Of a stretch of DNA of 36,409 nt, positions 4,746-35,758 are shown in pieces. The number at the start of each line of letters is the position of its first letter. The first letter of the stretch is position 1. This stretch comes from a virus. Both the position numbers and the translations under genes were made by a program. The notes beneath the pieces were generated by a model. It saw nothing but the letters and a program-made list of their open reading frames with translations, had not been told where the DNA came from and made no database searches. Location: positions 1-36,409 of the IMG/VR virus record IMGVR_UViG_3300048924_000225, one strand, 5' to 3'.

Positions 4746-6536
4746 CTATACCGCCCGCAGGCCACCAGCAGCGCGCAGGGGCTGCGGCTCGGCATGGGCG
4801 GGGTTCTTGAACTGCTCAATCAGGGCCTGCACCTGTTCTTGAGGCACGCCACCAGCAAAGCGCTGCGTCATAAAGGCGTTTTCCTCGGCTGTGAGATTGC
4901 GGCCCAGCTCGGCGCGGATGCGCAGCATCACGTCCACCGGATTCATCAGTTCGGGCGCGGCCGGTGCTGCGTGAGCAGGCGCGGCGATCTCGATGCCAGG
5001 CCGCTGCAGGAAGGCAGGCAGCTCGACGTCCTTGATGTAGCTGTGCGCCTTGATCTCACCGCCGAAGGGCACCACCTTGCGCTGGCGCGCGGCCTCCGCG
5101 TCCTGGCCGGGGAACGCCAGGGCGTCCATGGCCTTGCCCGCGACTTGGGCCGGCGTGTCCGCGTGGGACTTGTAGCCCTCGCCTGGCACGGCTGCGGACA
5201 TCGGGTTGCCGAAGCCGTCGAAATCGCGCTCTGGCTCGACCCGGAAAACCAGCGGCTCACCGTCGTAGCGGGCCAGCTCGACCTGGATCGCATCGTCGCC
5301 ATAGACAAGAGGTCGCACGCTGACCGTGTCACCCACATTCACCCCATCCATGCCCCGCAGGCAGTAGGTTTGCGTCCTCTCGGCCTTCGGATGACGGAAG
5401 CGAATGGCCTGGTGCTGGTTGACCGTGCGTTCCTCCTGCTTGCCAGCCATCAGGGCGCGGCAGACCTCGACCTCGGGCAGCAGGCGCAGCTCATCGCTGC
5501 GAATGCGCTGCCACAGATCGCTGCGGGCGATGGGGGCGGGCAAGCCATCGCGGCGCAGCCGCGTGTCCTGGCCGGGCAGCATGTTGGCGTTGTAGGCCTC
5601 GGCCCAGGCCGCAGCCGATGCGTTCAGCTCTTCGATGCTGTCCACGGGCTCGAATCGCAGGCGGCATTCAAACTGCGTCTCGCAGATGTTGTTGCCGCCT
5701 TCGACGCCGCCCTTGGCGCGGCTGTTGCCGGCCGCGTGCGTGAGGGCTTGGACCTCCAGGCTGTCCAGCAGGTGGCGGATGGCGTGGCTCTGGTTGGCGC
5801 TGCCCTTGTCCCAGACAAGCACCTTGGGCACGCCATGGAACAGACGCTGCTGCTGGTCCTGCTTGCCCCAGGCATACATCAGGAAATTGAACAGGCTGGC
5901 CTGGCTCTCGCCTGCGGCTTCGCAGTACCAGGGCAGGATCAGGCCGCTGGCACCATCCCACAGGACGTAGCGGAACACCTTGAATTTCACCTTGGCATAG
6001 TTCTCCAGCTTGTTCTTGTAGAACTCGCGGTCCTCCATGATGTACTGGCGCCCGTTGAGGTAGTACACCAGGCACAGGCTGGGATCGACCTGGTGCGTGT
6101 GGTTGGGATGCGGATAACGCATCTTCTGCGCGGGCGCTGCAGCGCGCTGCGCATCCACGCTCAGGCCCCGGTCGCGCATCAGGCGGTTCAGGTGGGCATT
6201 GCTCACGCCAACCGCCAGCCCGTTGGCTTCCAGCACGCTGCGCGCCACAGGCGTTTTCATGGTCTGCTTGCCGTTGTCGCGCAGGCTTTCGCGCTGCATC
6301 GTGGCCAGGGTCATCAGCGCTTGGCTGTCCACGCTGGTGCTGCCCTTGTCGGCGCGGCATTTGCGGCCGCTCTCCCAGCCGGCCACCGTCTTGAGGTGGC
6401 GGTACACCGTCTGGCGGCTCATGCCGAGGAACTCGGCTGCAGCGTCCAGCAGCGGGCCGCTGCCCCCATGAGGGGCCGCAGCCAGCTTGCGCGCCAGATC
6501 CCGCACGTAGTCGCAAATGGCGGGTGTCAAAGCCAT
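4746..6536 (-). CDS. DDE transposase A (Mu/BcepMu-like)
   Basis: About 600 residues of a transposase with the retroviral integrase (rve) core. Numbered from the upstream GTG at 6554, the catalytic triad is D157 (HQVDPS), D249 (VWDKGSAN) and E285 (KGGVEGGNN), a DD(35)E arrangement. An N-terminal helix-turn-helix (about 35-60, AAEFLGMSRQTVYRHL) probably reads the phage ends. A Mu-type C-terminal beta-barrel region follows the core, and the last 60 residues are helical (LTAEENAFMTQRF...EQVQALIEQF), a plausible contact for the ATPase B. The ATG at 6536 has GAGG about 10 nt upstream; the GTG at 6554 would add six residues. The protein cuts and joins the phage ends during integration and replicative transposition. 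Confidence 0.93.
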   Translation of the reverse strand: MALTPAICDYVRDLARKLAAAPHGGSGPLLDAAAEFLGMSRQTVYRHLKTVAGWESGRKCRADKGSTSVDSQALMTLATMQRESLRDNGKQTMKTPVARSVLEANGLAVGVSNAHLNRLMRDRGLSVDAQRAAAPAQKMRYPHPNHTHQVDPSLCLVYYLNGRQYIMEDREFYKNKLENYAKVKFKVFRYVLWDGASGLILPWYCEAAGESQASLFNFLMYAWGKQDQQQRLFHGVPKVLVWDKGSANQSHAIRHLLDSLEVQALTHAAGNSRAKGGVEGGNNICETQFECRLRFEPVDSIEELNASAAAWAEAYNANMLPGQDTRLRRDGLPAPIARSDLWQRIRSDELRLLPEVEVCRALMAGKQEERTVNQHQAIRFRHPKAERTQTYCLRGMDGVNVGDTVSVRPLVYGDDAIQVELARYDGEPLVFRVEPERDFDGFGNPMSAAVPGEGYKSHADTPAQVAGKAMDALAFPGQDAEAARQRKVVPFGGEIKAHSYIKDVELPAFLQRPGIEIAAPAHAAPAAPELMNPVDVMLRIRAELGRNLTAEENAFMTQRFAGGVPQEQVQALIEQFKNPAHAEPQPLRAAGGLRAV

Positions 6537-6557
6537 GCTGTCGTCCTCGCTCACGGC

Positions 6558-7547
6558 TTACTCGGCCTGGGCCAGGGGCTGGCCTGCAATGGCGCCGGGC
6601 TGCATCACATAGGTGCGGGCAGCTTCGATTTCATGGCCGTAGGTTTCCCAGATCAAGCGTTGGAGGCCTCCGACCGTCGCGGCGATGCGCTCCACGTTGT
6701 CGTGGATCTTCTGGGCCACGGCCACGACCTCGGCGGGCATGGGTGTGGCTTCGCCGGGGACATAGCCGGGCTGCTGCATGACCTCATCCAGCCACCATTT
6801 CTCCAGCTCCTTAGCCTGGCGGTCCAGGTCGATCAGGGCGGCGCAGGCCGCGTCCTGTGTGGTGTTCACCGCCTCATTGAAATCCTGCAGGCGCTCCGAG
6901 ATGGGGGCGAGCTTGGGTCCCCCCGATTTCAGCGCCTTTTCGGCCTTGTCAGCACGTTGAGACTCCTTGTCGCGCTTTTCGGCCATGAACTTGTTGTCCT
7001 CCTTGGCCTGGCGCAGCGTAGACCGCAACTGGCTGGCGCTCATGCGGTCGATGTCGTCCATGTCCTTGAGCGATTCGAGAACGTCATCGTCATGGGTGAT
7101 CAGCTCCAGGAAGGCGCTGGCACTTTTGACTTGGGTGCTCAAAATGCTCAAATTGAGCGATTTGGCGGTCTTGGCTGCGGCCTGCATGAAGCGGTACGCA
7201 GTCGATTTGGAAAAGCCCAGGAATTCAAGCCGTGCCTCGAATTCACCGTTTTTCCCAATTTGGGAATTACCTGGAGGCAGCACTTCACGCAGCATCAGCA
7301 AGCGTTTTCCGGTTTCCAAGATCGCCTCCACCGTGCGGCGCTGGTAGAAGCGAATCTCGTCCTCCAGGGCGCCCACGGTCAGCGGCCCTTCGTAGCCCAT
7401 TTGGGCAGCCATGGCTTTGGCGTTGGCGGAGCCTTCCATCAGGACCAGCGCATTCGCGTCCTGTGCCTGTTCAATGCGCGCCACTGCGCCCTGATCAAGC
7501 ACTACGTCTTGCACCGGGTGAGCGGCCTTTGTTGCTGTGCGTCCCAT
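6558..7547 (-). CDS. DUF3102-like early phage protein
   Basis: A 329-residue protein beginning MGRTATKAAHPVQ; the start at 7547 is supported by GGAGAG 7 nt upstream. Residues about 65-130 read LEDEIRFYQRRTVEAILETGKRL, then LREVLP, then the FLGFSKSTAYRFMQAA stretch. That pattern resembles the DUF3102/ParB-associated HTH found in phage and plasmid proteins. A long charged coiled coil follows (about 185-215, LRQAKEDNKFMAEKRDKESQRAD). The context upstream of the transposase suggests a DNA-binding accessory protein, but its actual role is not known. Confidence 0.7.
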   Translation of the reverse strand: MGRTATKAAHPVQDVVLDQGAVARIEQAQDANALVLMEGSANAKAMAAQMGYEGPLTVGALEDEIRFYQRRTVEAILETGKRLLMLREVLPPGNSQIGKNGEFEARLEFLGFSKSTAYRFMQAAAKTAKSLNLSILSTQVKSASAFLELITHDDDVLESLKDMDDIDRMSASQLRSTLRQAKEDNKFMAEKRDKESQRADKAEKALKSGGPKLAPISERLQDFNEAVNTTQDAACAALIDLDRQAKELEKWWLDEVMQQPGYVPGEATPMPAEVVAVAQKIHDNVERIAATVGGLQRLIWETYGHEIEAARTYVMQPGAIAGQPLAQAE

Positions 7548-7570
7548 AGTCAATCTCTCCTTCTTGTTGA

Positions 7571-7879
7571 TCAAAATCCGCTGGTCATGGAATGGCGGCG
7601 GTCATCCAGCCGGCGCTGCGCCCGCTCGAACGAGTCCGACACCTTGAAACTCAGGCGCGTGAACTGCGCTGTGGGGTAGAAGCGCCCGGTCTCGTCGCTC
7701 TTGCGGCACCAGCCGTAGGCAATGAGCGTTTGCGTAGCGCGGGTGATTGCCACTGCCGTCGTCTTGCAGGCGGTAGCCAGGTCTTTGTTCGTCGCGCCTT
7801 CCTCGGCGAAGCCACACAGGGCCTCCAGGACGCTCAGAACGGGCTGTGCGCTCTTGGTGGTGTTCGCGGTGGTACTCAT
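7571..7879 (-). CDS. Winged-helix DNA-binding protein (IclR-like N-terminal type)
   Basis: A 102-residue protein with the layout of an isolated IclR-type winged helix. A helix reads VLSVLEALCGFAEEGATNKDLA, then a recognition helix KTTAVAITRATQTLIAYGW and a wing GRFYPTAQFTRLSFKV. No effector domain is present. The start overlaps the stop of the upstream gene by 4 nt (ATGA at 7876-7879). It is probably a small phage regulator in the early operon; its target cannot be read from the sequence. Confidence 0.75.
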   Translation of the reverse strand: MSTTANTTKSAQPVLSVLEALCGFAEEGATNKDLATACKTTAVAITRATQTLIAYGWCRKSDETGRFYPTAQFTRLSFKVSDSFERAQRRLDDRRHSMTSGF

Positions 7880-24147: not shown

Positions 24148-27100
24148 ATGGCCACGGCTGGCGGCGACCTGAATGTCGCGTTGCGCTTTCAGACGAATGT
24201 CGAACAGGCGCGTGCAGACCTGAAGGCATTGCGCCAAGACCTGGCCGGCGTGGGCAGCACTGCGCCACAGGGCGCGGGCCAGGGCCTTGACCAGGTCGCG
24301 GCATCGGCGACCCAAGCAGCTACGGCAACGCGGGAGGCGGCAACCGCAGCCAAGACCCATGCCGACGCGGCGGGCTCTGTCGCATCCGCTTCTGTGGCAC
24401 AGGCGCGTGCGGTGGATGCAGCGGCTGTTGCTGGCGAACGCTTCCTGGCGGCGCTGCGCGATCAGGTCGCCACAACGGGCAAGTCTGAAGGGGCGCTGCT
24501 GCGGTACCGTGCGGCCCAGGCTGGCGTCGCCGCACAGGCATCGCCACTGATCATGCAGCTCGAGCACCAGCGCGCGGCGATGGCGGCGAACGAGGCCGCC
24601 GCGCAGCGGGCGGCTGCTGCGCAACGTGCTGCAGCTGCCGCACAGCAGCAGGCAGCTGCAGCACAGGCCAACTTCATGGCCGGCCTGCGCGACCAGGTCG
24701 CGGTGGCGGGCCTATCTGAAGGGGCGTTGCTGCGGTACCGTGCGGCCCAGGCTGGCGTCACAGAACAGGCAGCGCCACTTATCTCGCAGCTGGAGCGCCA
24801 GCGCGCGGCGATGGCGGCAAACGAGGCCGCCGCGCAACGCGCGGCCGCTGCGCAACGTGCTGCCACTGCGGAACGCCAGCAGACCGCCGCCACACAGTCC
24901 AGCTTCCTGGCGGGCCTGCAGGACCAGATAGCCCTGCAGGGCAAGTCAACGACCGAGGTGATGCGCTACCGCGCTGCCCAGCTCGGTATCTCTGGTGCAG
25001 CTGAGAAGTACATCAGCGCAATCGAAGCGAGCAACAAGGCCCAAGGCCGTGGTGCCATCTCGGCGGCCCAGTACAACGCCGCCATGCGCATGCTGCCCGC
25101 GCAGATGACCGACATTACGGTCGGCCTGACCACCGGGCAAAGCCCGTTTATGGTCCTGATGCAGCAGGGTGGCCAGCTCAAGGACATGTTCGGCGGCATC
25201 GTTCCTGCAGCGAAAGCTGTGGGTGGTGCGGTCGCCGGGTTGGTCAATCCATACACCCTGGCAGCTGGTGCTGGCGTCGTCCTGGCAGCAGCATGGCTGT
25301 CGGGCCGGCGCGAGTCGGAGGGGTATGCCAAGGCGATCACCATGTCGGGCAACGCGGCCGGCACCAGCGTGGGCCAGCTCACGCTGGTGGCACGCGCCGC
25401 TGGCCAGGTCACAGGCGCTTATGGCATGGCTTCTACAGCTGCAACCGAGTTGGCAGCTTCGGGCAGGGTTTCCAGTGCCGTCCTGGCCCAGTCGGCCACT
25501 GCTGCAGTGGGTCTCGCTCAGGTCACGGGCGCCAAGGTATCGGAGACGGTGCGCATCTTCGAGGAACTGGGCAAGTCCCCTGTCGACGCCAGCCGCAAGC
25601 TGAACGAGGAATACAACTACCTCACGGCATCCGTCTATGCCCAGATCAAAGCGCTGGACGAACAGGGGCGCAAAGAAGAGGCCGCCGCGCTGGCCCAACG
25701 CACCTTTGCGCAAGCAGTGAACCAGCGGGTGGCAGAAGTCAAAAGCCAGCTGAATGGGCTGGGGCAGACCTGGGACTGGGTGGGCCGGCAGGCCTCCAAG
25801 GCCTGGGACTTCATGAAGAACATCGGCCGCGTGACGCCCCTGGCCGACCAGCTTGCCGAGGCCCAGGCCGAGTACACGGCACTGGTAAAGGCCGCCAACA
25901 ACTCCTCGAAAATTGCCGGCTTCTTTGGCCTCAACGTCGATACGACGAGGGAGGCTCGGCAGGAGGCACTCTCGAAGATCGCGTCCATCCAGGCGCAGAT
26001 CCGCAGTGTGGACGAGAAGGCTGCAGCTGATTCCAAACGCGCCCAAGACAACGCCGCCCGCATTGACGCGACGGACTCATGGGACAAGCGCGCGAAGTCA
26101 TTGCGCAACTGGAAGCAGCAGCTCCAGGACATGACAGATGACATCCGCAAGCAGGGCAAGCTGCTGGGGAAGACCGACCAGGAAATCAACGAACAGATCA
26201 AGTCCGCCACGGAAAAGCTCACCCCCAAGACCCCCAAAGCCGCGGCCAAGAGGGCAGACCCGGTAGACACGGCATACCAGGCCCAGCTGCAGCAGCTGCA
26301 GATGGCTCGGGCCTCCGCTGGCCAGGCCCTGGCGAACGCGCAAGAAAACGTCAGCGCTACCCAGGAGCAGGCCACAACGCGGCTGGAGGCCTGGCTGGCC
26401 GTCAACAAGAACGCGCTCAAGCTGGACGACGAGCGCATCGCCAAACTGCGCGCCGAAGCGGCAGAAACCGACCGGCTCAACAAGGCCACCAAGGAAATCA
26501 CTGAAGGGCGGGCCCGGCGCGAGCGCATCACGGCCGGAATGGCCGATGTGCAGGAAGCGATGGCCCAAGCGCAAGGCCAAGGCGTCGAGGCGGCTGTGCA
26601 GAAAGTCGAGGAGCGCTTTCGCAAGCTGCGTGCAGACCTGGCCGTGCAGGGCGACTTCGCTGGCCTGGTCAAGGTCGACCAGCTCGTCGACGTGGAGCGC
26701 GCACGCGCCCAGCTCGCTGATCTGCAGCGCCAGGCGGAACGCATCCTGGCCGAGCAGTCGCGCGCAGAGCAGTCGCTCTCCCTGAGCGTCACGGCGGGGC
26801 TGACGGGCGAGCTGGACGCCAAGCGCCAGGTGCTCGACATCAACACCCGCACGGCCCAGCAGATCGAGGCCCTGCTGCCTCGCATGCGGGAGCTGGCTGC
26901 CCTGACCGGCAACAAGGACCTGGCCAACGGCGTGGCTGAGATGGAACTGCGCGTCCAGGGCCTGCGCACGCGCGCCAACGAGCTGCAAAAAGCGTTTGGC
27001 GACACCTTCGGTGACAGCCTGACCCGGGCACTTGGAGCGCTGTCTGAGGGCACTGCGTCGCTCGGCGAGGCAGTGCGGGGCCTGCTCCGCGACCTGGCTG

Positions 27101-30084: not shown

Positions 30085-30300
30085 ATGCGTATCTGGCCCC
30101 GCCATCTCTACAGCGTGCCCCATGAATCCGGCGTGGGGTTTTGCGCCACTGGCAGCCGCCGCTGGTGGGCCGCCCACGGCTTCGACTGGTCCGAGTTCGT
30201 GGCCAGCGGCATTGACGCCGACGAGCTGCTGGCCACGGGCGATCCGCGCGCCGTGCAAGTCGTAGAACATGCCAAATCAGCAGAGGCGATGAATGGGTAA
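30085..30300 (+). CDS. Small tail-module protein (71 aa)
   Basis: A 71-residue protein, MRIWPRHLYSVPHESGVGFCATGSRRWWAAHG at its start, with GGAGG 5 nt before the ATG at 30085. The C-terminal part FDWSEFVASGIDADELLATGD, then RAVQVVEHA, is a pattern seen in small proteins that lie just before the tip gene in related phages. The role is unknown. It overlaps the tip gene by 8 nt. Confidence 0.75.
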   Translation: MRIWPRHLYSVPHESGVGFCATGSRRWWAAHGFDWSEFVASGIDADELLATGDPRAVQVVEHAKSAEAMNG

Positions 30301-33300
30301 GAAGAAGAAAGTCACCGTCGGCTACAAGTACTTCATGGGCCTGCACATGGGACTGGGGCGCGGGCCGTTCGACCTGATCCGCGAGATCCGCGTGGGCGAC
30401 AAGACGGCCTGGCTGGGAAACGCCACGGGCAACACCACGATCAAGATCGACAAGCCCGACCTGTTCGGGGGAGAGGAGCAGGAGGGAGGCATCCAGGGTG
30501 ACTTGGTCGTGCTCATGGGCGCCAAGGACCAGCAGCGCCATGCCGGCCTGGCCCAGATGCTGGGCGGCCTGGTCAGCGCCTTCCGTGGTGTGGTCACGAC
30601 CTACTTTGACGGCATGGTCTGCGCCATGAGCCAGTACCCCAAGCCCTGGGCCTATCGCGTTCGGCGCATCCAGATGGGCTGGCACGGCGGGGAGTGCTGG
30701 TATCCCGAGAAGGCGGCGATCAAGCTGGGCGAGCGCATGCTCATCAGCGGCTCCGACCGGCCCTGGCGCTACCTGGTCGTTCCAAACTCGGACGCAACGG
30801 ACCGGTCCGCCACGGCTTTCGACGACAGCGCCTGGCCCAGCGGGAAGACGCCATTTGCATCGCGCCCCTGGGACATCCCCGGCCTGTACGGCTTTGCGAC
30901 GATACCGGCCACCACGGTACCGGAGGCCAGCAAGGTGTGGATGCGCACCTGGCTGGATCTGGGGGAGGTACCGCAGCAGCTGCGGTTCCAGGCCTTCGTG
31001 GACAACGACTGCCGTGTGTATGTGAACGGTACATTCGTGCTGGAAGTCGGCGGCAACAACGGCGCCTACTACGACGTCAACATGCCGACCTCGGCGTTCG
31101 TCGCCGGCAGGAACAGCATCGCTGTCGTCGGCTGGGATCGGCACAGCGGGCCGGGCAACTGGTACTGGTTCGACTGGCGCATGGTGGACTCCACCAACGA
31201 CGACCTGTTCGGGATGAACCCCGCGCACATCCTGTATCAGGTCTACACAGACCCACGCATGGGCCGGGGCCTGCTGCCTGCGGCGCGGCTCGATGACGCT
31301 GCCTGGCGGGCTGCCGCCGACGCTTTCTCGGCCGAAGGCCTGGGCCTGTGCATGAAATGGGCGCGCAGCGGCCCAATCGCCGAGTTCGCGCAGCAAGTCA
31401 TCGACCATGCAGGCGCTGCGCTGTACACCAGCCGGCGCACCGGCAAGCTGGTGCTCAAGCCCATCCGCGACGACTATGACATTGACGATCTGCCGCTGTT
31501 CACGCCCGATACGGGCCTGCTGGGCATTGACGACGATGCGTCGTCGGCCCAGGCCCAGGGCGTCAACGAGATCGTTGTGAAGTACTTCGATCCTTTCGAC
31601 AAGCGAGAAAAGGCCATCCGCGAGCGCAACCTGGGCGCCATCCTCGCTGCAGACGGCGTGGCAGTGACCGAGGAAGTCAGCTATCCGGGCCTGGCCACCG
31701 AGGCGCTGGCCCGCCGCATCGCGCGCCGCGACCTCAATGCCAAAGGCGGCTTCATCAAACGCTTCGAGGTGCGGCTGGACCGGCGCGGCAAGGACATCCC
31801 CCCGGGCGGCGTGTTCCGCATCAGCGACCCGGCGCGCGGGATTGACAGCATGGTGCTGCGCGCCGGCAGCGTCGACTACGGGACGGCCACGGGCGGCACC
31901 ATCACAGTGACGGCCCTGCAGGACGTTTTCGGGATGCCGGCAACGGTGCTGCGTGAGCACGAGGATTCGGGCTATGTACCGCCTGACACGACCCCACGCG
32001 CGATCACGCAGCAGCGCGTCATCGAGGCGCCATACCGCGACCTGGTGCAGCGCCTGGGCGCCAATGATGCGGACGCACTGGACCCCACTGCGGGCTATCT
32101 CCTGGGCCTGGCCGTGGCGCCTTCGGGCATGTCGCTGGCATTCGATTTGCACACCCGTGTGGCTCCGGCTGACTTTGCCCTGGCGGCGTCGGGCGCGTTT
32201 TGTCCTGGCGCCAGGCTCGCCGCTGTGCTGCGCCCCATGGACACCACAATGGCCGTCAGTTCCGGCACACGGCTGGCCGACGTCCAGCCCGGGACGGCCG
32301 CATTGGTCAACGGCGAGATCGTGCGGGTGGACGCGGTGGACATGGACGCCGGCTTGCTGGTCGTGGGCCGGGGATGTGCGGACACTCTGCCTGCCTTGCA
32401 CGCCCTCGGCAGCCACGTGTTTTTCTATGACACGTTCGGCGAGGCGGATGCCACTGAATACACGCAGGGCGTATCCGTGGAGGCCCGCTTGCTCACGCGC
32501 ACCACAGCGGGCGTGCTGCCCCTGGCGTCCGCAAGCACACAGACCGCAACTTTTGCGGCCCGCGCGATACGCCCCTACCCGCCAGGGCGGGTACTCTTCA
32601 ACGGCAACGCATACCCCGATGCCGTCGTCGGCAGCGTTGCAACCACATGGGCCCACCGCGACCGCCGCACGCAGGCGGACGGCTTGATCGACGCGGCGGC
32701 TGCAAGCATCGGCCCCGAACCCGGCACCAGCTACGAGATCCACTATTTTTCCGAGGAAGGCGGTACCCCGATTGCCTCGGAAACTGGCATGACGGGAACC
32801 GCCGCCACGGCGTGGACGCCGCCAGGACCGGGCCGCTACCGCGCGGAGCTGTACAGCAGGCGCAACGGGCTGCGGTCGCTGCAGCAGGCTGTCCATACCT
32901 TCCAGTGGGGCGCTCAGCTGTGGACTCCCAGCAACCTTGCATCGCCTCCCGCCCTCTGGCTCGATGCGACTGCGGGGGTCGCCCAGGACGGGGCAGGAGG
33001 CTGCAGCACCTGGACTGACGCCTATGGCCAGAGCATGTCGCAGGGCAACGCCGGCTTCAGGCCGAGGGTGGTGACCGGCCTGGGCGGGCTGCCGGCACTG
33101 AGTTTCGAGGGAGATGACTACCTGGCATCGGATGAGACCTCGATTGCCCGGCTGTGCAGCGGAGTGAACGCAGCCTGGACGCTTGTGGTGTTCGATGGCG
33201 TTCCGATACCGGGGGCGGAAGTAGCGAAAACCATCCTCTCGATTCCTTCGCCAGAGCGAAGGCCTCGGTGGGAACTGAACGCAGGCTATGGCAACGTCTA

Positions 33301-34663
33301 TCCCTATCTCTACTTGGGTCGTCTGGATAGCGGGCCGTGGTCGTCCCCCGTAGGGCTGTCGTCCCCGGTTCAAAGCGCTGTGTTGATGGCCTCCATGGAC
33401 TTCATCACGGGGGCTGCCCAGATGGAGACGGAGTCGGGTCTGTCCAGCGCTGGAACTGGCTCAGGAGGAGGCCCGACCTCCGCCACGACCTCGGCGACGG
33501 TCGGACTCGGGGGTATCGTGGATGGTCAGAATCTCCATCGTTTCATCGGCCGTATGTCCTGTGTGCTTTTTGGGAACGGCACTTTGCCCAGCCGCGACGA
33601 AGTGGACAAGCTGATGGGGTGGGCTGCTCACCGCTGGGGATTGACGGCGAACCTGCCTGCCGACCACCCATACAAACATCAGCCACCAACAGTGACTGAC
33701 CCAGGCGTGCCTGGCGCGGATTGGCATCAATGGCCCGTTCCATACCAGCAGGCAGGCACCCCGTACGGCATTTGCTGGAGCCCGACCCTGCAGCTGTACT
33801 GTGCAGTGGGCGATGGGCTGAGCTCAGGGAAATCCGGTGTGATGACAAGCCCGGACGGCGAGCAATGGACTGCGCGCCAGGCGTCGTTTCAGGGCAGCTT
33901 CATGTCGGTTTGCTGGAGCCCCGAGCTGGGGCTGTTTGCTGCGGTGAGCCCGAACAGCCTGCCCAACAAAAGCGTGATGACCAGCCCGGACGGGCTGACA
34001 TGGACCACGCGGCAGGGCGTGGCCAGCTCGGGCTTCACCAGCATTTGCTGGAGCCCGGAGAGGCATTTGTTTGTCGCAGTGGCACTGCTCGGCGCGGGCG
34101 GCGAAACCAAGGTCATGACCAGTCCCGACGGCGAAACCTGGACAGCGCGGCAAGGCGGCCAGGGATGTGGATGGGCGGGAGTCTGCTGGAGCCCGCAGCT
34201 GCAGCTGTTCGTCGCAGTCGCATCCTTCGCGCCTGCCGGCGTCGGCCGCGTCATGACCAGTCCTGACGGCGTGTCCTGGACCCAGCGCGCCACACCGGCA
34301 AACTTCGCGGGTGGCGCGGTGTGCTGGAGCCCTGGCTTATCTCGGTTCGTCGCCATCGGGGGCGCACAGGTCGGCAGCACGATGGTCAGCACAAGCCCCG
34401 ATGGCCAGGTATGGAGTTCCACGACATTGCCGGAGAGCTATGGCAATAGCGCCTGGCACTCCATTGCATGGAGCGACGCAGCATCGACTCTGTGCGCGGT
34501 AGGCATAGGCAGCGGCCGGCCCTTGATGACCAGCCAGGACGGGGTCGCATGGACCCAGGCCGGCGGATTCGGCGGGAACTATTCGGGCGTGTGCTGGAGC
34601 CCCGAGCGCTCCCAGTTCTGCGCGGTCTCGATCTACAACGCGCATACCCGTGACATGACATAG
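30293..34663 (+). CDS. Tail tip/attachment protein with several likely sugar-binding domains
   Basis: A 1456-residue protein that would form the end of the tail and bind the host. The N-terminal hub part starts KKKVTVGYKYFMGLHMGLGRGP and is interrupted at about 155-300 by a jelly-roll domain (WRYLVV...DDSAWPSG...FVDNDCRVYVNG...GRNSIAVVGWDR). The gpJ-like core continues to about 780 (SSAQAQGVNEIVVKYFDPFDKREKAIRERN and so on). A LamG/concanavalin-like domain covers about 885-1120 (ALWLDATAG...FEGDDYLAS...HRFIGRMSCVLFG...DKLMGWAAHRWGL). The last 310 residues are seven units of CWSP-x5-F-x-AV ... MTSPDG-x2-WT, a beta-propeller. It is the likely receptor-binding protein. Confidence 0.85.
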   Translation: MGKKKKVTVGYKYFMGLHMGLGRGPFDLIREIRVGDKTAWLGNATGNTTIKIDKPDLFGGEEQEGGIQGDLVVLMGAKDQQRHAGLAQMLGGLVSAFRGVVTTYFDGMVCAMSQYPKPWAYRVRRIQMGWHGGECWYPEKAAIKLGERMLISGSDRPWRYLVVPNSDATDRSATAFDDSAWPSGKTPFASRPWDIPGLYGFATIPATTVPEASKVWMRTWLDLGEVPQQLRFQAFVDNDCRVYVNGTFVLEVGGNNGAYYDVNMPTSAFVAGRNSIAVVGWDRHSGPGNWYWFDWRMVDSTNDDLFGMNPAHILYQVYTDPRMGRGLLPAARLDDAAWRAAADAFSAEGLGLCMKWARSGPIAEFAQQVIDHAGAALYTSRRTGKLVLKPIRDDYDIDDLPLFTPDTGLLGIDDDASSAQAQGVNEIVVKYFDPFDKREKAIRERNLGAILAADGVAVTEEVSYPGLATEALARRIARRDLNAKGGFIKRFEVRLDRRGKDIPPGGVFRISDPARGIDSMVLRAGSVDYGTATGGTITVTALQDVFGMPATVLREHEDSGYVPPDTTPRAITQQRVIEAPYRDLVQRLGANDADALDPTAGYLLGLAVAPSGMSLAFDLHTRVAPADFALAASGAFCPGARLAAVLRPMDTTMAVSSGTRLADVQPGTAALVNGEIVRVDAVDMDAGLLVVGRGCADTLPALHALGSHVFFYDTFGEADATEYTQGVSVEARLLTRTTAGVLPLASASTQTATFAARAIRPYPPGRVLFNGNAYPDAVVGSVATTWAHRDRRTQADGLIDAAAASIGPEPGTSYEIHYFSEEGGTPIASETGMTGTAATAWTPPGPGRYRAELYSRRNGLRSLQQAVHTFQWGAQLWTPSNLASPPALWLDATAGVAQDGAGGCSTWTDAYGQSMSQGNAGFRPRVVTGLGGLPALSFEGDDYLASDETSIARLCSGVNAAWTLVVFDGVPIPGAEVAKTILSIPSPERRPRWELNAGYGNVYPYLYLGRLDSGPWSSPVGLSSPVQSAVLMASMDFITGAAQMETESGLSSAGTGSGGGPTSATTSATVGLGGIVDGQNLHRFIGRMSCVLFGNGTLPSRDEVDKLMGWAAHRWGLTANLPADHPYKHQPPTVTDPGVPGADWHQWPVPYQQAGTPYGICWSPTLQLYCAVGDGLSSGKSGVMTSPDGEQWTARQASFQGSFMSVCWSPELGLFAAVSPNSLPNKSVMTSPDGLTWTTRQGVASSGFTSICWSPERHLFVAVALLGAGGETKVMTSPDGETWTARQGGQGCGWAGVCWSPQLQLFVAVASFAPAGVGRVMTSPDGVSWTQRATPANFAGGAVCWSPGLSRFVAIGGAQVGSTMVSTSPDGQVWSSTTLPESYGNSAWHSIAWSDAASTLCAVGIGSGRPLMTSQDGVAWTQAGGFGGNYSGVCWSPERSQFCAVSIYNAHTRDMT
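33720..34663 (+). repeat. Seven-unit coding repeat (beta-propeller of tip protein)
   Basis: Units of about 45 residues each begin with a CWSP-like strand followed by a hydrophobic F-x-AV strand; six of the seven then show the Asp-box-like SPDG-x2-W (TSPDGEQW, TSPDGLTW, TSPDGETW, TSPDGVSW, TSPDGQVW, TSQDGVAW). The last unit stops after its first strands, and the missing strand may come from the DWHQWPVPYQQ segment at the start, closing the ring. Confidence 0.8.
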
Positions 34664-34768: not shown

Positions 34769-34812
34769 GCGGTCGAAGCCTACCAGTTTTCCGTATGGGA
34801 AAGAGGCTTGCA

Positions 34813-35046
34813 ATGGAAGAAATACGCTGCGGCTCCTGCCGCCGCAAACTGGGCGAGGGAGTTTTCTCCCGCCTGGCGATCAAGTGCCCCAGGTGTGGGG
34901 CATTCAATCAGCTGAGCGCCTCGAGCGCCACACCAGAGCCCCAGAGCGGGCCGACAGCTGAGATAAATGACAAACCCCATAGTCCCATGGATCGGCGGCA
35001 AGCGTCGCCTCGTCGACCTGCTCCTGAAGCGGTTTCCCCACCATAG
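34813..35046 (+). CDS. com: Com-like zinc-finger translational regulator
   Basis: A 77-residue protein with the Com signature MEEIRCGSCRRKLGEG, then LAIKCPRCGAFNQ: a C-x2-C and C-x2-C pair (Cys 6, 9, 25 and 28), in the first 30 residues. Mu Com binds the mRNA and frees the ribosome site of mom. The start at 34813 is the ATG directly before the conserved part; a preceding in-frame ATG (34795) would add six residues. The tail overlaps the methyltransferase start by 80 nt in another frame, as com overlaps mom in Mu. The last 40 residues are Pro/Ser-rich and may be unstructured. Confidence 0.85.
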   Translation: MEEIRCGSCRRKLGEGVFSRLAIKCPRCGAFNQLSASSATPEPQSGPTAEINDKPHSPMDRRQASPRRPAPEAVSPP

Positions 35047-35758
35047 CTGCTACGTCGAGCTATTCGCAGGAGGCGCGGCCGTGTACTTCGCGCGGCACCC
35101 CGCCGATGTCGAGGTCCTCAACGATGTCAATGGCGACCTGGTCAACTTGTACCGGGTCGTCACTCATCACCTGGAGGAATTCGTCAGGCAGTTCAAGTGG
35201 GCCTTGACGAGCCGCCAAGTGTTCAAGTGGATGCAGGAGACCCGGCCAGAAACGCTGACGGACGTGCAGCGTGCGGCCAGGTTCTTCTACCTGCAGCAGC
35301 ACTGTTTCTCAGGGAAGGTGAGCGGCCAGACCTTCGGCACGGCGACCACTGCGCCAGCGATCAATCTGCTCAGGATCGAAGAAACGCTGTCAGCAGCGCA
35401 TTTGCGTCTCGCGGGCGGCACATACGTCGAGCAGCTAGATTGGTCCGCGTGCATCGACCGCTATGACCGGCCGCACACGCTGTTCTACGCGGACCCGCCG
35501 TACTGGGAGACCGAGGGCTACGGCGTGCCGTTTCCCTGGGAGCAGTACGAGCTGATGGCCGCCAAGCTCAAGACGATCAAGGGCAAGGCTGTGGTGAGTA
35601 TCAACGATCACCCGGCGATCCGAGAGTGCTTCCAAGGTTTTGAGATGGAGTCGCTCAAACTGGACTACACCGTGGGCGGCGGCGCCAATCGAGTCGAGCG
35701 CGGCGAGCTGGTCATCTACAGCTGGGACCGAGAGCACGAACCGGCAGGCCTGTTTTGA
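34967..35758 (+). CDS. D12-class adenine-N6 DNA methyltransferase (Dam-like)
   Basis: A 263-residue methyltransferase of the D12 (Dam) family. The N terminus shows PWIGGKRRLVDLLLKRFP, the SAM-binding motif FAGG is at 33-36 and the catalytic DPPY at 176-179 (FYADPPYWE). A late motif AVVSINDHP is near residue 205. It probably methylates adenine in the phage DNA to evade host restriction. The site recognised cannot be read. The only ribosome site is weak (GCTGAG before ATAAATG), which fits dependence on Com for translation. It occupies the place of mom in Mu; FluMu-type prophages have a comparable com-dam pair. Confidence 0.9.
   Translation: MTNPIVPWIGGKRRLVDLLLKRFPHHSCYVELFAGGAAVYFARHPADVEVLNDVNGDLVNLYRVVTHHLEEFVRQFKWALTSRQVFKWMQETRPETLTDVQRAARFFYLQQHCFSGKVSGQTFGTATTAPAINLLRIEETLSAAHLRLAGGTYVEQLDWSACIDRYDRPHTLFYADPPYWETEGYGVPFPWEQYELMAAKLKTIKGKAVVSINDHPAIRECFQGFEMESLKLDYTVGGGANRVERGELVIYSWDREHEPAGLF

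Follow-up and report, generated by a model that had tools for sequence, protein, structure and literature searches.

The tail tip of phage JBD30 carries a trimer of the hub protein, and the receptor-binding protein gp54 is a separate product of the next gene, into whose trimer the C-terminus of the hub docks (PMC11445458). β-propellers are known from phage receptor-binding proteins, among them phi11 gp45, PRD1 P2 and PhiKZ gp131C (PMC4901313). PhiKZ gp131C (PDB 4GBF) has a C-terminal seven-bladed propeller at the baseplate and is thought to bind or degrade the receptor, while phi11 gp45 is a trimeric receptor-binding protein whose propeller has an N-terminal closing strand and for which sugar binding was proposed (PMC4901313). 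Neither propellers nor receptor-binding C-termini of tail-tip proteins are new; in the virus described here it is likely that the hub itself has gained, at its C-terminus, a built-in receptor-binding module, with the tip arrangement and host-surface binding proposed below.

The window, by which we mean the whole stretch of 36,409 nucleotides that was analysed (IMG/VR record IMGVR_UViG_3300048924_000225), has a GC content of ~60-69% and represents a 36.4-kb virus record encoding a terminase, portal, head protease, major head protein, major tail protein and tape measure. The tail hub with its extended C-terminus is a single ORF of 1456 residues at 30293-34663, on the + strand like all the tip features and downstream genes given below; the first-pass annotation had correctly recognised a tip protein of 1456 residues, but had placed its start at 30757, which is merely the start of an insert. 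The tape measure, distal tail and upper baseplate genes lie upstream (matches to PHROG 24, 1082, 778 and 1180). Residues 1-872 match PHROG 1101 (E 4e-271; 3.6e-271 before rounding). The hub is made up of an N-terminal part, residues 1-147 (30293..30733), which belongs to this match and is colinear with ORF56 of phage B3, and a main part, residues 302-870 (31196..32902), for which the JBD30 structure PDB 8rk3_o is matched with a best stretch at 304-870 (E 3.8e-158). Homology extends over all hub domains, and residues 1-870 form a baseplate hub of the B3/JBD30 type.

Two further observations concern other parts of the window. The tape-measure gene contains two neighbouring stretches, at 24441-24927, that cross-match at 83-85% against the nearly identical contig L002 with a shift of ~230 bp, which suggests an internal duplication in that gene. 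At 4746-7679, a 961-residue + strand ORF has no PHROG match and overlaps a 602-residue ORF on the - strand; given that AT skew is negative across the first 8 kb of the window, this region may be coding on the - strand.

Comparison with the closest described hubs, JBD30 gp53 and B3 ORF56, defines what is particular to this one. Over residues 1-870 these proteins are the same hub, with ~43% identity in the tblastn pieces, and their genes are likewise located after the upper baseplate gene; however, they have neither the jelly-roll insert at ~148-301 nor the 586 residues that follow residue 870 here, and they are followed by the separate receptor-binding gene gp54. The minor tail protein of phage Chi (PDB 8vjh; E 7e-150) shares hub homology over 303-837 and, like the protein in the window, has a long C-terminal part beyond the hub, but the match between the two stops at the hub.

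The insert lies between residues 147 and 302 (~148-301; 30734..31195), a position at which the hub of phage B3 has no counterpart to it, and it is 56-64% identical in the relatives L174 and L172, with lower identity in others. A jelly-roll at about residues 155-300 had been noted at first pass, and the domain found here appears to resemble the N-terminal jelly-roll of GH2 enzymes: Pfam GH2_N matches below the cut-off (E 0.004), a profile of four insert sequences leads to a GH2 exo-beta-glucosaminidase (E 0.058), and a low-confidence model (pLDDT 62) has GH2 N-terminal jelly-rolls as its fold matches (Z ~11). These three lines agree, none being strong alone, and we refer to the insert as GH2-N-like.

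The first part of the C-terminal addition, residues ~876-1134 (32918..33694), ends in HPYKHQPPTV and is judged from its aligned relatives to be a LamG-like, concanavalin A-like domain, slightly longer than the 885-1120 assigned at first pass. It aligns with L252-L254 and with phage Rollin at 27-37% identity; Pfam Laminin_G_3 is matched by two of the five members of this alignment (best E 2.6e-4), the window's own sequence giving no match, and a profile search with the alignment against PDB sequences gave none.

The remainder, residues ~1143-1456 (33719..34660), is a predicted seven-bladed β-propeller with SPDGxxW motifs. Seven CWSP-type half-units begin at residues 1161, 1207, 1252, 1298, 1344, 1392 and 1434, and six SPDG/SQDG motifs are spaced 42-48 residues apart, the protein stopping midway through the seventh unit, so that the C-terminal part of a split blade 7 is left at 1434-1456 (34592..34660). 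When everything after the hub was aligned at once, the LamG relatives fell against the propeller; the latter was therefore modelled alone, from its own alignment. AlphaFold2 with 55 sequences gave a high-confidence prediction (pLDDT 87.5, pTM 0.88), and the PDB fold matches were mostly seven-bladed. A weak match of the propeller profile to kelch sequences in the PDB (E 0.003) covered part of the domain and was not trusted. Sialidase-type propellers carry the BNR/Asp-box motif SxDxGxTW; membership of that class was rejected because the motif here, SPDGxxW, has one residue fewer from D to W. The SPDGxxW type belongs in part to Pfam DUF6242, which is matched at 1e-4 or better by 12 of the 46 aligned proteins, the window giving no match.

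A ring of this kind would be closed by a strand from the N-terminal side, and the first-pass annotation had proposed, together with the seven-unit propeller that the model now bears out, an exchange of strands between its ends. The presumed closing strand is DWHQWP around W1144/W1147 (33719..33736), which would complete blade 7. Because its pLDDT is <50 in the model, the case for closure is made by the family pattern and by the N-terminal W, which is conserved in relatives. A lone W strand at the start, exactly six motifs and a stop halfway into the seventh unit, near a VMTS strand, were found in 128 of ~193 related arrays, counted in the best 80 and 79 loci of the viral and bacterial searches; a pattern so widely shared is not due to chance. 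Six motifs and a lone W strand are, at the level of sequence, what a seven-bladed ring with an N-terminal closing strand predicts.

The repeat units had been described as identical-looking and as possible substrates for recombination that would change specificity. The first of these descriptions is wrong: the blades are 31-52% identical in amino acids and 39-68% in nucleotides, the longest exact DNA repeat is 17 bp, no tandem repeat was called, and L002 retains all seven blades. With blades so different and no near-identical repeats, recombination of units is not supported for the tip gene. Between the tip gene at 30293-34663 and its counterpart in L002 (6001-10371) there are 26 nucleotide differences, 12 of them in the propeller (945 of the 4371 bases), and these 12 amount to one amino-acid change, 11 lying outside changed codons, which suggests purifying selection on the propeller. 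As a separate observation, the hub part of the two contigs is unusually similar relative to the contig (98.4%).

Propellers of this type are widespread. Using a profile of three propeller sequences we collected at least 462 confirmed viral relatives, and 314 more from bacterial genomes; they are borne by very diverse viral and bacterial proteins, with numerous tail and tail-fibre proteins among them. Our literature search found no study of the SPDGxxW type. These DUF6242-like propellers, 37-46% identical to that in the window, share its motif, spacing and split-blade rule, but those collected sit on other proteins, and a hub match was found on none of the collected propeller-bearing ORFs. The propeller is thus common, and what is unusual is its fusion to the hub, seen solely in this lineage within our sample; the earlier suggestion that a propeller on a tail tip is unusual holds for its place on the hub, but the propeller type does not of itself define a rare class. 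The parts are known or widespread, and their combination is new in this sample. The search also returned a viral ORF with four or more successive six-motif arrays (L048, 3319-8250) and, in Synechococcus phage B23 (L004, 214733-215620), a complete seven-bladed SPDGxxW propeller open on the + strand where the record has two hypothetical genes annotated on the other strand, likely a misannotation.

Bacterial proteins of unknown role carry the propeller too, so its fold does not by itself imply receptor binding, and the genes around the hub were considered. The ORF directly after it encodes 83 residues with two Cys pairs (34795..35046), which we take to be Com-like, and is followed by a D12-class DNA methyltransferase (34967..35758; Pfam MethyltransfD12, E 3.7e-25); no receptor-binding gene follows the hub in the window. 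We compared deduplicated relatives of the hub, calling those with 150 or more residues after the hub extended and those with less than 150 short. When gp54-type genes were sought by homology, their presence was not associated with the length of the extension (4/12 vs 16/45), but this measure of length also counted insertions within the hub, and the fibre genes found downstream come from several families. For these reasons the comparison was based instead on whether any gene at least 140 residues long adjoins the hub. Such a gene adjoins two of seven extended hubs, one of the two (in L204) resembling a membrane protein, and 48 of 50 short hubs, a difference for which the Fisher p of ~1e-4 is merely indicative, since the criterion was set after an exploratory listing and the rows are phylogenetically related, the window and L002 being near-identical and the short hubs including many close relatives. 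Because extended hubs are mostly without the adjoining gene that short hubs have, the C-terminal addition most likely replaces a receptor-binding gene.

The ends of related hubs are other modules of surface type, and they differ among close relatives too. L172, with a hub 60-63% identical and the same genes downstream of it, has Ig-LamG-Ig, a possible other propeller and an F5/8 C (discoidin-type) domain at its end; the end is a GDSL esterase in L173 and LamG in L179, L204 and L236; and L174 shares the insert but lacks any addition, its gene of receptor-binding type being separate. The second gene after the hub of L174 (9395-11788) starts with a domain of the arabinofuranosidase-B type (Pfam ArabFuran-catal, E 6e-7) and is perhaps another surface module. 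An addition that stands for a receptor-binding gene and whose ends are exchanged freely is most simply read as a receptor-binding module, and this putative role is supported by the gene context, including the swapping of ends among close relatives. Propellers are common scaffolds, and the LamG-like domain and propeller might instead cap or stabilise the closed tip while another virion protein recognises the host; yet the ORF and PHROG listing of the window has no candidate fibre gene after the tape measure or the hub, and the replacement of the entire end by unrelated modules in relatives would hardly be allowed for a required cap, so we regard a mainly structural role as quite improbable.

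A candidate binding face for the receptor-binding module comes from comparing the propeller in the window with its family, with strand and loop classes taken from the AlphaFold2 model. At 92% of strand C positions it carries the commonest residue of the family; the figure is 69% for the CD loops and 68% for strand D, but 19% for the BC and 7% for the DA loops. In a leave-one-out comparison with the consensus the window is the most extreme of the 55 rows: its BC and DA loops agree at 13% (median 67%), whereas outside these loops the agreement is 65% (median 71%); the collected propellers on other proteins keep the BC/DA consensus that the window has lost. In propellers, the BC and DA loops form one face. 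This diverged face may be the one that binds, though alignment error near indels could exaggerate its divergence.

The same data bear on two other readings of the addition. Capture by recombination of a widespread repeat domain, carried as a passive passenger and having no specific role in attachment, would agree with the presence of the propeller on such diverse proteins, but the combination of a conserved core with one remodelled loop face, and the purifying selection suggested by the comparison with L002, make it highly improbable. Enzymes are frequent among seven-bladed propellers, virginiamycin B lyases give the best structural matches (Z up to 31) and a sister hub has a GDSL esterase at the same place, all of which would suit a C-terminal part that degrades or trims surface polysaccharide with an active site held in the propeller. 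The strongly conserved positions are, however, the structural motifs SPDGxxW and CWSP, conservation here is lowest in the loops that would contact a ligand, and the lyase-type and other matches are matches of fold at 9-16% sequence identity; enzymatic activity is accordingly an unlikely explanation.

For the receptor-binding module we propose the following arrangement. By analogy with JBD30, three copies of the hub would close the tail tip, each carrying the LamG-like domain and then the terminal seven-bladed propeller, which one N-terminal strand would close by completing its last blade. The addition would take the place of the receptor-binding gene that follows the hub in JBD30, and with its BC/DA loop face the module would attach to the host surface, probably to a glycan there, and in this way draw the tip up to the envelope; carbohydrate binding is plausible from the folds alone. 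The arrangement differs from those of the described propeller proteins: PhiKZ gp131C is a peripheral baseplate protein of a myophage and is not fused to a hub, and phi11 gp45 has five blades in a platform in the middle of a separate protein and serves a phage of a Gram-positive host. No sequence relation to PhiKZ gp131C was seen; it was not among the propeller matches listed, and a relation may still exist.

It is conceivable, if on balance somewhat doubtful, that the hubs of this group have a C-terminal docking place at which whole modules (LamG, esterase, propeller, discoidin-type) are exchanged instead of a receptor-binding gene, and that one loop face of a common propeller has here been remodelled into a specificity surface. 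A widespread propeller family, for which sequence searches found no close solved relative, gains a phage context and a predicted binding face, and the rule that a hub of this type is either extended or accompanied by a separate fibre gene can guide the prediction of receptor-binding parts in B3/JBD30-like phages, whose annotation often goes no further than "tail protein."
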